Shown here: positions 20,099-23,678 of the stretch, piece by piece
How the letters are laid out: each line of letters begins with the position of its first letter
How positions within the stretch are numbered: position 1 is the stretch's first letter
Origin: Rhodoluna sp.
Lineage (GTDB): Bacteria > Actinomycetota > Actinomycetes > Actinomycetales > Microbacteriaceae
Length of the DNA stretch: 32,463 bases
NCBI GenBank assembly: GCA_016462375.1
Contig: JAEMTJ010000011.1
Location: 1 to 32,463 of the forward strand
Direction: 5' to 3'
Position numbers and translations under genes: made by a program
The notes under the pieces: generated by a model
The model's input: only the letters and a program-made list of their open reading frames with translations
Told to the model about the DNA's origin: nothing
Databases searched by the model: none

Positions 20099-20174
20099 TC
20101 CTCGGTAGCTCAATTGGCAGAGCAATCGGCTGTTAACCGATAGGTTCTTGGTTCGAGTCCAAGCCGGGGAGCCA
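20099..20174 (+). tRNA. tRNA-Asn (GTT), CCA encoded
   Basis: Cloverleaf read by eye: acceptor TCCTCGG/CCGGGGA, anticodon arm ATCGG-CTGTTAA-CCGAT (anticodon GTT), T-arm with GGTTCGAGTCC, encoded CCA. Confidence 0.95.
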
Positions 20175-20200: not shown

Positions 20201-21457
20201 ATGTTTCTCTGGATTAGAGACCAGAAGTGGCTCCCAACCGTCTATTTATCCCTCGTCGCTTTAGCGGTCTTTGGGCTAAGTGATTACTTCCTACAAGGCG
20301 AGAAAACTTGGCTGGCGACTCTTCTCATGGTTGGCTCTGTCGCTTTCTCTAGAGCGTTACCTTGGCTTTCGATTGCCTTGTTTTCTTTAGGAATACTAAC
20401 ACCGCAATTCTTAGCACTGGATCCTCAACTCTCGCTCACACTCGCCACATTCAGTCTCTTAGTGCTAGCAGCCTATGGCAACAAATTGCAACGAAGAATT
20501 GGCTATGCGCTGAATGTTGGATTGGGAATAACGTCATTTATTTGGCTTATTACAACTTTGCCAGTTGGCAGATCTTTCTATGGGGTTGAGCTACCAACAG
20601 CAGAATCTAAATACGCCCTATTCGCTGCCGGATTTGTGGCAATCATTGCAATCAATGCCAATGCTTGGTTCTTCGGGAGGTTGTTTATCACCCGGGTAAC
20701 TCACGTGGGAACAAACTTTGACCGTGCGGTTCTTGAACGTGAACTAGCAGCTACTCAGCTAGCACTTGCTGAGCAAGATAGAAGATTTGAAATAGCAAGG
20801 GATGTAAATGATCTCCTTCTAGAGCAGGTGAGCGCAACTCTTAGTTCAGCTGAAGCTGGTATTTATTCTGCAAAGTCAGATTCATCAGTTGCACCTCGAA
20901 TACTTGAGAACATCTTTGAAGGGATGAAGAAATCTCACTCTGAAATCCGCAGACTTAGCGATCTACTTGGTCTGCAGGACGTCAAAGCACTCGCGTTGCC
21001 TGGTATCAGGGATCTTCCAAAACTTTTCATTAGCTACAGAGAGTTTGGCTACGGAGTCAATTACAGACTAACCGGCGAGCCGTTGGAATTAGATGATGGG
21101 GCTGAACTGGTGTTATACCGAATCGTTTTTGAGTCCTTGGAAAACATCAAGCAGCACACAGCAGAATCGACTGAAGTTGATGTTGATTTCATTTGGCAGG
21201 GAACTGCCATGCAGGTAGTGATCAAAGACAACGGTGAGGAAACCAAGAATCGATTAGAGAAAGCGCTCACTGGCTATTCCGAGCAAGACGATCATCGCGC
21301 CCTTGTCGAAAGGCCGACTGGACCTAATCTGACTGCTCTGCAGGAGCGAGCAGCGCTCTACGAAGGTGCGATTGAGTTCGCCAAGGTTCCTGGCGTTGGT
21401 TTCACCGTCTCAGCAGCTTTCCCAAACATCGCTAAGTACCGGAAAGATTCGAACTAA
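20201..21457 (+). CDS. NarL-type sensor histidine kinase-like membrane protein with degenerate DHp/ATPase motifs
   Basis: Multiple N-terminal TM segments; EQDRRFEIARDVNDLLLEQVS aligns to the HisKA_3 pattern ERxRIARELHDxxxxxL with His replaced by Asn203; C-terminal HATPase-like LVLYRIVFESLENIKQHT...VIKDNGEE...GPNLTALQERAALYEGAIEF. Confidence 0.8.
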   Translation: MFLWIRDQKWLPTVYLSLVALAVFGLSDYFLQGEKTWLATLLMVGSVAFSRALPWLSIALFSLGILTPQFLALDPQLSLTLATFSLLVLAAYGNKLQRRIGYALNVGLGITSFIWLITTLPVGRSFYGVELPTAESKYALFAAGFVAIIAINANAWFFGRLFITRVTHVGTNFDRAVLERELAATQLALAEQDRRFEIARDVNDLLLEQVSATLSSAEAGIYSAKSDSSVAPRILENIFEGMKKSHSEIRRLSDLLGLQDVKALALPGIRDLPKLFISYREFGYGVNYRLTGEPLELDDGAELVLYRIVFESLENIKQHTAESTEVDVDFIWQGTAMQVVIKDNGEETKNRLEKALTGYSEQDDHRALVERPTGPNLTALQERAALYEGAIEFAKVPGVGFTVSAAFPNIAKYRKDSN

Positions 21458-22132
21458 GTGGCACAGGAGATTCGTGTTGCGCTGATTGGTGGTTCAGAAG
21501 CAATTAGAAAATCTCGTAAAGAAATTTTGGCCACGCTAAGTCAGATAAAACTTGTCTTCGATTCAGATGGTTTCGGTGTAACTCCAGCTGAGCTTATTGA
21601 GGTCAACTTTGATGTTGCGGTGCTCGAATTACGCCTAGAAAACCAGTCTGCTCTGGATTTTTTAAAGTCAATGTATGTAATGGCAAACATTCAAAAACAA
21701 GCCTTTGGCAGAGTTTTGATTGCCACTCAGTTCAGTGATGACATCCTTCGTGTGCAGGCAATTCGAGCGGGTGCAGTCGATGCCGTGTTTGTAAGTGATG
21801 GTATGCATTCAATGCTGACAAAGATTCAACACTGTTTCGATGAGCATGCCGACTTTGCTATTCGTGAACTCTTGCCAACCCTAGATAAGCAAGAGGTGTC
21901 AGCTTCTGATTTTCAAATGATTTCCGTTTCGCTGGACACACTTGAAGCGAAGGAAGCCTTGATTTTGCATGGCTTCTGCGAACTAAAAAGCGATTCTGAG
22001 ATATCAAGTGAGGTTCACGTCACAAAATTGAAAGTTCGGCAAACCATAATCAAGGTTCAAAACTTGCTCACCCTGAACACTCGGTCGCAGCTACTGTTAA
22101 AAATGTTTGAAGTTGGAGCGTTAGCCCTCTAG
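21458..22132 (+). CDS. Atypical NarL/FixJ-family response regulator-like protein
   Basis: Receiver-like fold sequence RVALIGGSEAIRKSRKEIL...FDVAVLELRLENQSALDFL...AIRAGAVDAVFVSD and C-terminal LuxR-HTH-like LEAKEALILHGFCELKSDSEISSEVHVTKLKVRQTIIKVQNLLTLNTRSQLLLK. Starts (GTG) directly after the kinase stop. Confidence 0.75.
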   Translation: MAQEIRVALIGGSEAIRKSRKEILATLSQIKLVFDSDGFGVTPAELIEVNFDVAVLELRLENQSALDFLKSMYVMANIQKQAFGRVLIATQFSDDILRVQAIRAGAVDAVFVSDGMHSMLTKIQHCFDEHADFAIRELLPTLDKQEVSASDFQMISVSLDTLEAKEALILHGFCELKSDSEISSEVHVTKLKVRQTIIKVQNLLTLNTRSQLLLKMFEVGALAL

Positions 22133-22687
22133 CTTGTCTTGACCAGGAAGCCAACTCAGATTTGGTTTACCCCAGCCACGTTCAGCGACAATCTCAGCAC
22201 AGTCTGATTTGTGTGGTTCGGCAAGTCGATCGAAATACAGAGTTCCGTCTAGGTGGTCATATTCGTGTTGAAATATTCTGGCGAACCATCCTTCCGCGAT
22301 AATCTCAACTGGATTCCCAGCTAGATCGAAACCTTTGACTGTTGTTTTCTCAGCCCGTCTCAGCGGGAATCTTTCACCAGGCACGCTTAGGCACCCTTCA
22401 CTCTCAATGTCCCAGTCAGCCTCGCCAGCGGGGGTCTCTGATAATTCGATAGACGGGTTGATGAGAACACCCCGTTGAATAGCTCCATCCTCTGCATCCC
22501 AGTCATAAACAAAGACTCTCAGACTTACCCCCACCTGAGGGGCTGCAAGGCCTACGCCAGGGGCCTCGTCCATGGTCTCGAACATGTCTCGGACTAAATC
22601 TCTCAGTTCTTGGTTAAATTCGGTAACTGCTAGGGCTTTAGTGTGTAATACGGGGTCTCCGGTAATCACAATCGGTCTGATAGGCAT
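22121..22687 (-). CDS. def: Peptide deformylase
   Basis: GVGLAAPQVG, EGCLSVPG, FQHEYDHLDG: the three deformylase motifs. Confidence 0.97.
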   Translation of the reverse strand: MPIRPIVITGDPVLHTKALAVTEFNQELRDLVRDMFETMDEAPGVGLAAPQVGVSLRVFVYDWDAEDGAIQRGVLINPSIELSETPAGEADWDIESEGCLSVPGERFPLRRAEKTTVKGFDLAGNPVEIIAEGWFARIFQHEYDHLDGTLYFDRLAEPHKSDCAEIVAERGWGKPNLSWLPGQDKLEG

Positions 22688-22766
22688 TATCCAAATTTAC
22701 CCTAGAGGGGCATATCTAGCGCTTCTGACTAGGCTTATAGAAACCTTTAGGAGAATTGGGGAAGTC

Positions 22767-23678
22767 TTGAAGATCATCGCCATCGGACTTGCGCTGATTT
22801 CAGCAGTCGCGTTAGCCATTGGCGCTCAGATGCAGAATGACGCCGTTGGTAAGAAGGCTGCTCTCTCCGGCAGGTCTCATGTGAGCTTCAGGCAACTTTT
22901 GGATCTGCTAAAGCATCCAAGATGGGTAACTGGTCTAACTATTTCTGCGTTTGCTCTAATTTTGCAATTTACAGCACTTCTTCTTGCGCCGCTTATTCTT
23001 GTTCAACCCATTGGTGCAATTGCTTTGGTAATAACTTCAGTTCTGAATTCTAGAATCACCAAAACAAAACTGAACTCAGCGTCCATCTTTGCCATCGCGC
23101 TTTGCACTGCAGGGTTAGGCGCATTCGTGCTAATGGCTCACCAGGTCGCTGTCGAACCAGAAATTGACGACGGTAACCTGATGTTAATTCTTGCCATGGC
23201 GGTCCTCCTTATTGCTATATTCAGTTACATATTCTTCAGCGGAGCTAGCCGATTCAAGCCCCTTACATTCATTATTGGTGCCGGAGTGCTCTACGGTTTC
23301 GTTGCGACGCTAACCAAGGTGGTAGTTAAGCGCTTGTTCAATCAGGACGGTTTTAATCGGATAGTCAGTGGATCATTTGAGTGGGAAACCGACTCACTGA
23401 CATTGTTTGCACTTTTGAGCATGTTGGCAGCAGCTTTCTTGGGTGGTTGGTTTGTGCAGAATGCCTATGCTTCAGGACCCCCAGATTTAGTGGTAGCTGG
23501 ACTTACGGTAATCGATCCGTTGATTGCGGTGAGCATCGGTGTGGTTATCCTAAATGAAGCTATGAACGCTCCGATGCCAATCATGATGGGTTTCCTAGGA
23601 TCTGGTGCCATGTCGGTTATGGGCGTTTACCTTCTATCAAAAGTCCATCCGCAGGTATCCACATCACGGGCAAGTTAG
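22767..23678 (+). CDS. DMT-superfamily-like multi-TM transporter
   Basis: About 9-10 hydrophobic segments; IGLALISAVALAIGAQMQND..., PLILVQPIGAIALVITSVLNSRI. Likely start TTG 22767 with upstream AGGAG; the N-terminal extension in the ORF track (from 22572) runs antisense to def and is probably not translated. Confidence 0.7.
   Translation: MKIIAIGLALISAVALAIGAQMQNDAVGKKAALSGRSHVSFRQLLDLLKHPRWVTGLTISAFALILQFTALLLAPLILVQPIGAIALVITSVLNSRITKTKLNSASIFAIALCTAGLGAFVLMAHQVAVEPEIDDGNLMLILAMAVLLIAIFSYIFFSGASRFKPLTFIIGAGVLYGFVATLTKVVVKRLFNQDGFNRIVSGSFEWETDSLTLFALLSMLAAAFLGGWFVQNAYASGPPDLVVAGLTVIDPLIAVSIGVVILNEAMNAPMPIMMGFLGSGAMSVMGVYLLSKVHPQVSTSRAS

Follow-up and report, generated by a model that had tools for sequence, protein, structure and literature searches.

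Can a sensor kinase and its adjacent response regulator be kept as a signalling pair when the residues of phosphotransfer are missing on both sides? The question is raised by positions 20201-22132 of a stretch of 32,463 nucleotides from Rhodoluna sp. (contig JAEMTJ010000011.1, here called the window), where a kinase open reading frame is directly abutted by a regulator open reading frame. The kinase (HK; 20201..21457, ATG start, 418 aa) shows HisKA_3/DesK architecture, and the regulator (RR; 21458..22132, GTG start, 224 aa) combines a pseudo-receiver with a LuxR-type helix-turn-helix (HTH), both according to AlphaFold2 models and Foldseek searches; all features given here lie on the + strand.

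A conserved locus beside tRNA-Asn

A tRNA-Asn(GUU) gene (20099..20174, ARAGORN) ends 26 nt upstream of the HK start, and the same tRNA stands directly upstream of HK at every locus reaching that far in the genus, by which the Rhodoluna-like Luna-cluster Microbacteriaceae are meant. The gene order dus-dgt-dnaG-2HADH-tRNA-Asn-HK-RR-def(convergent)-NIPA-GT4 is kept across the genus where contigs reach, with a spacing between HK and RR of -8 to +9 nt (42 loci measured, both ends read). An AGGAG ribosome-binding site lies immediately 5' of the HK ATG, and a promoter scan between the tRNA and HK returned no sigma-70-like promoter and nothing above chance. Since the 26-nt gap contains only the ribosome-binding site, transcription of the pair may start at the promoter of tRNA-Asn. 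The layout of tRNA-Asn followed by a kinase is kept genus-wide and also occurs in several sister genera. At the other end, the 3' end of RR and the convergent def overlap by 12 nt (22121-22132), and the NIPA-like transporter frame (22572-23678) has its listed start inside def, on the opposite strand, so that its true start is probably located further downstream.

HK was found, with the RR gene adjoining, in 30 of the 36 genus genomes searched (window genome included), and the genomes without it are fragmented assemblies, mostly incomplete. Further copies were collected by a named-genome scan of Rhodoluna sp. and Micrococcales/Microbacteriaceae MAG records, leaving 49 HKs and 49 RRs after duplicate removal, with the phospho-His site covered in 48 of the HKs. 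Both genes have thus been retained side by side in about 50 species whose genomes are very small.

Catalytic residues kept and lost

HK consists of an N-terminal membrane part with several predicted helices (aa 1-165, 20201..20695), which is the fastest-evolving region of the protein and matches DUF7134 in 8 of 37 relatives, a degenerate DHp domain (HisKA_3; aa 188-260, 20762..20980), which is the most constrained domain in the clade of the window, and a CA domain (HATPase_c, Pfam match; aa 265-410, 20993..21430), which holds the slowest sites. The window HK matches HATPase_c over the Pfam cut-off and HisKA_3 under it (17.5 vs 24 bits), and all 37 aligned genus HKs match HisKA_3 at E ≤ 0.01. 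In the AlphaFold2 model (pLDDT 81.7, pTM 0.44), the best Foldseek matches are DHp-CA structures of DesK, among them the H188V and H188E mutants with AMP-PCP or ADP, and DivL (4q20) is also on the list; a sequence-profile search of the PDB returns DesK and VraS.

The position of the phospho-His is occupied by Asn203 (AAT, 20807..20809) in the motif IARDVNDLL, where the HisKA_3 consensus reads ELHD. Among the 48 orthologs covering the site, Asn is found in 22, Ser in 15, Thr in 10, Ala in one, and His in none; in the full-length HKs used for site rates only N, S or T is present. Given that the phospho-His is missing in just 0.3% of HisKA_3 domains generally (PMC12632262), its absence from 48 of 48 genus orthologs means that the non-His state is not a matter of chance. 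The alignment of these 48 sequences contains no alternative His common to all of them, and a DHp His near position 246, present in 30 of 49 HKs, is Y, F or Q in the remainder. The ATP site (N315, K342-D343-N344-G345, G398, and G400) is invariant in 49/49 HKs. HK therefore retains the N, G1, and G2 boxes of the HATPase_c domain that mark an active HisKA_3 kinase, and does not have the phospho-accepting His of the ELHD motif. Moreover, the phosphatase-motif (DxxxQ) position, which is Glu208 in the window (20822..20824), is among the slowest 4% of HK sites, being Gln in 39 of 48 HKs and E/D in a clade of nine to which the window belongs. A pseudo-histidine kinase is defined by Collins and Childers, as relayed in PMC12632262, as a protein of histidine kinase fold that is devoid of one or more core functions, yet is retained within a two-component network. 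On the basis of its fold, the absence of the His, and its low omega, HK can be classed as a putative pseudo-histidine kinase, linked to RR genetically through adjacency.

RR gives a weak match to Response_reg, and its receiver departs from the canonical pattern (PF00072: an acidic pair, Asp, Thr/Ser, and Lys) at every one of these sites: Gly11-Gly12 (21488..21493) replace the metal-binding acidic pair, Glu57 (GAA, 21626..21628) the phospho-Asp, Ala89 (21722..21724) the conserved Thr/Ser, and Val112 (21791..21793) the conserved Lys. Of the 49 RRs, none has the second, Mg-binding acid or the catalytic Lys, the first acid is Asp in 28, the acceptor position reads D in 35, E in 9, G in 3, and N and A in one each, and the Thr/Ser position holds T in 30 and S in 6; the first acid, the acceptor Asp, and the Thr/Ser are thus additional losses of the window receiver. 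Since a pseudo-receiver is a receiver fold missing at least one of the five residues (Bourret and colleagues, PMC12632262), all 49 genus RRs belong to this class. The RR model (AlphaFold2, pLDDT 91.3) is a receiver-HTH protein whose best Foldseek matches in the PDB are LiaR, VraR, and other NarL-type regulators. Its C-terminal LuxR-like HTH (aa 150-224, 21905..22129), seen as helices in the model and strongly conserved in the window clade, has the four-helix LuxR/GerE form of NarL/FixJ regulators by fold and only weakly by sequence, with GerE matched in 4 of 41 RRs and either GerE or Sigma70_r4 in some relatives. The preliminary description, made from the window alone, had thus read correctly the abutting DesK-like and NarL-like genes, the exchange of His for Asn203, and the simultaneous replacement of several receiver residues. 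The check that it suggested, on whether Asn at the His site and Glu/Gly in the receiver are conserved, gives a mixed outcome: the site is never His, but is Asn in just 22 of the 48 and otherwise S, T or A, and the Gly-Gly pair is common to all nine window-clade members, but Glu57 is confined to 9 of the 49 RRs.

Selection, descent, and the order of the losses

In the window clade, codon models give an omega of 0.054 for the whole HK (membrane part 0.066, DHp 0.013, CA 0.024) and of 0.030 for the whole RR (receiver 0.042, HTH 0.014), each value being the second, final estimate of its run; as dS is saturated for most pairs, these figures are approximate and indicate strong constraint, not precise values. 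The closest pair, L113/L115, yields 0.032 for HK and 0.082 for RR at a dS of about 0.2. Site rates point the same way, with a mean of 0.44 in DHp helix 1 (aa 188-226) vs 1.40 in the membrane part and with the ATP-binding residues among the slowest in HK. Strong purifying selection acts on HK and RR alike, and their frames are intact throughout, which agrees with the earlier opinion that this is not simple pseudogenisation and answers the dN/dS comparison suggested with it (omega about 0.03-0.06). Nor does only this genome deviate, the case that had been set against that opinion, since the His is missing from every ortholog.

The slot between tRNA-Asn and the convergent def is occupied in other Microbacteriaceae by a family-wide second kinase, named HK2 here, of roughly 310 aa and mostly 32-38% identity to the genus HK over DHp-CA in the loci fetched. 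In many loci, a canonical kinase-regulator pair precedes HK2, and a stand-alone canonical receiver and/or azlC lies between HK2 and def. In the tree, HK2 and the genus HKs are sister groups, apart from canonical kinases, and from synteny and tree alike the genus HK descends from the HK2 gene beside tRNA-Asn. The phospho-His site of HK2 is H in 28 of 40 sequences and Q, G, F or L in the other 12, which requires seven changes, while N315, G345, G398, and G400 are kept in 40/40 and D343 in all but one (E). Because the His has been lost repeatedly with the ATP site essentially intact, the His is dispensable in the HK2 family and the ATP site is not. The HK2 proteins without phospho-His and with the ATP site kept are L132, L133, L135, L136, L142, L144, L156, L159, L166, L168, L070, and L075. 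All nine HK2 with a neighbouring receiver have H, vs 19 H and 12 non-H among those without one (Fisher p = 0.037, not corrected for phylogeny). The stand-alone canonical receiver, which has no output domain, follows HK2 in L150, L152, L154, L157, L160, and L167, in some beside azlC, and the nine HK2 with such a receiver all have, in addition to the phospho-His, a His at the phosphatase position. At L155 (2429-2848), a small SHOCT-domain frame (under the Pfam cut-off) stands between the canonical regulator and HK2 of the family-type operon.

The genus HKs form one clade with full support, which places a single loss of the His on the branch leading to the genus. Parsimony on the genus tree requires eight changes at the acceptor Asp, six at the first acid, four at Thr/Ser, and one from Gln208 to E/D, the last of which sets apart the nine-member clade of the window (G000, G027, G016, G025, G011, G033, L092, L093, and L094), where the acidic pair is always GG and residue 89 is Ala or Ser. 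The loss of the His came first and the erosion of the receiver later and unevenly, the window clade being the extreme case; one early loss in the kinase and repeated later losses in the receiver indicate that the receiver was freed after the His had gone. The preliminary description had inferred a co-evolved loss on both sides, and this stands in so far as no ortholog has a phospho-His and no receiver has the second acid or the Lys; it was not, however, one concerted event, as the acceptor Asp persists in most RRs and was lost along several branches. Mirror-tree partial correlation was 0.38 for HK-RR vs 0.42 for HK-2HADH and 0.46 for RR-NIPA, so that background pairs are equal to it. A descent of RR from the stand-alone receiver of the family found no support: the genus RRs are a clade of their own, and their scores are higher with full-length LuxR-type regulators, an effect due in part to the greater length of the latter.

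Probable signalling without a phosphate relay

Strong selection on both genes in dozens of species makes it probable that the pair signals in some way other than a phosphate relay. As to how, the balance tips slightly towards a conserved pseudo-two-component system, in which a membrane-anchored scaffold that binds ATP would act on a pseudo-receiver transcription factor through docking and not through phosphotransfer. HK would be a membrane-anchored DHp-CA protein with ATP binding and dimerisation predicted to be kept and with the usual His not available for phosphorylation, and RR a NarL/LuxR-type transcription factor whose receiver would be incapable of normal phosphotransfer chemistry. A signal and/or the occupancy by ATP vs ADP would shift the conformation of DHp-CA and thereby change how the pseudo-receiver docks on DHp helix 1, a conserved element, and docking or release would then set the dimerisation and DNA binding of RR; allosteric docking or sequestration would thus replace the phosphate relay. 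Against this reading stands the retention of Asp57 (35/49), Thr/Ser89 (36/49), and Gln208 (39/48) in most relatives, as would be expected if some phosphatase or acetyl-phosphate function had remained outside the window clade. A broader proposal, tentative and put at somewhat less than an even chance, is that the kinases of the tRNA-Asn/def locus are a lineage for ATP- and signal-gated docking in which the phospho-His is freely lost, and that the Luna-cluster genus joined to it a LuxR-type pseudo-receiver, giving a two-component switch free of phosphotransfer.

The main rival is a phosphatase-only sensor, in which the kinase half is dead and HK dephosphorylates an RR that receives its phosphate from acetyl phosphate or a different kinase. 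The His is not required for the phosphatase activity of HisKA_3 proteins (PMC12632262), and the retained residues just named, with a DxxxQ-type Gln208 at a very slow site, would suit such a role; nevertheless, none of the 49 receivers has the second metal-binding acid or the Lys, and the window clade has E/D at 208, Gly as first acid, and Ala/Ser instead of Thr. This reading is unlikely overall and cannot explain the window pair, but it may hold for other members of the genus. It is rather unlikely, too, that RR is constitutively active and controlled by its expression, e.g., through read-through from the tRNA-Asn promoter, with HK as an antagonist or passive anchor without ATP switching. The proximity of the tRNA, the separate ribosome-binding site of HK, and the empty promoter scan would accord with this, as would the frequent constitutive activity of characterised pseudo-receiver regulators (PMC12632262), whereas an ATP pocket that does not vary among about 50 species implies a need for bound nucleotide.

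A heterodimer, with the pseudo-kinase pairing with or being cross-phosphorylated by another kinase, has precedents in DivL-CckA of Caulobacter and in the truncated ChrS pseudokinase with HrrS of Corynebacterium glutamicum (PMC9491836), and the complete genus genomes G006 and G017 encode another HisKA_3 kinase whose His is intact (FLHD/YLHD; L175 and L176). However, searches of complete G149 and of the window genome, which is 90% complete, found no such kinase. In G149, HK is the single HisKA_3 protein at E ≤ 0.01, which speaks against compensation by a DesK-type paralog in that genome; in the window genome, the sole other, weak HisKA_3 match looks like a peptide-chain release factor. Phosphorelay signalling in general persists in the genus, which has three HisKA kinases and several canonical regulators, but kinases of the HisKA class are not expected to heterodimerise with HK, and the heterodimer is considered quite improbable. 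Even less credence is given to a relay still running through another residue, Ser/Thr203 or another His: position 203 is restricted to N, S, T or A and a His near 246 is common, but Asn is the commonest state and the one in the window, the His near 246 is replaced in other HKs, and none of the 49 RRs has intact receiver chemistry. Finally, signalling genes do get lost in streamlined genomes, and loss of the His recurs among HK2 proteins, yet gene decay or sequencing error is practically ruled out by the agreement of 48/48 orthologs, the low omega, the invariant ATP site, and the intact frames.

The HK-RR pair shares domain architecture, gene order, and fold with DesK-DesR and other NarL-type systems, but is devoid of the phospho-His, the second acid, and the Lys, and in the window also of the first acid, the Asp, and the Thr. 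DivL resembles HK in having a DHp-CA region without phospho-His that is kept for protein-protein signalling; it differs in being of the HisKA and not the HisKA_3 class, in modulating the kinase CckA, and in answering to a normal regulator, DivK, rather than to an operon-encoded pseudo-receiver. The ChrS pseudokinase, which carries a CA frameshift, is likewise an actinobacterial HisKA_3 kinase turned pseudokinase, but it arose in laboratory evolution, lost CA and not the His, and its normal regulator is phosphorylated by HrrS (PMC9491836). BldM, WhiI, and CmrT resemble RR in joining a receiver fold that is missing catalytic residues to a DNA-binding output; however, 18 of the 20 pseudo-receiver regulators in PMC12632262 are orphans, CmrT lies beside a normal kinase, and none is described with a His-less kinase. 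A conserved operon of two pseudo-enzyme partners, a 'pseudo two-component' system, or AzlC-linked Microbacteriaceae kinases were not found in the literature searched, with most subscription papers lying outside it. Pseudo-kinases and pseudo-receivers are known separately, and no description of a stable operon pair of both was found: they have mostly been met singly, in otherwise normal networks or as orphans, whereas at this locus the two genes of a single operon are both degenerate and have stayed side by side in small-genome species.

Pseudo-receiver switching has been described as a mystery (PMC12632262), and Rhodoluna lacicola, a transformable model organism (PMC11577799), belongs to the same cluster, so that phosphate-free two-component signalling is directly testable. 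HK2, the positional ortholog and sister clade of the genus HK with the same ATP site, differs in still having the His in most of the sequences sampled and in being followed by a canonical stand-alone receiver and/or azlC and not by a LuxR-type regulator; this family provides repeated natural experiments in which the His was lost again and again and the ATP site was kept.
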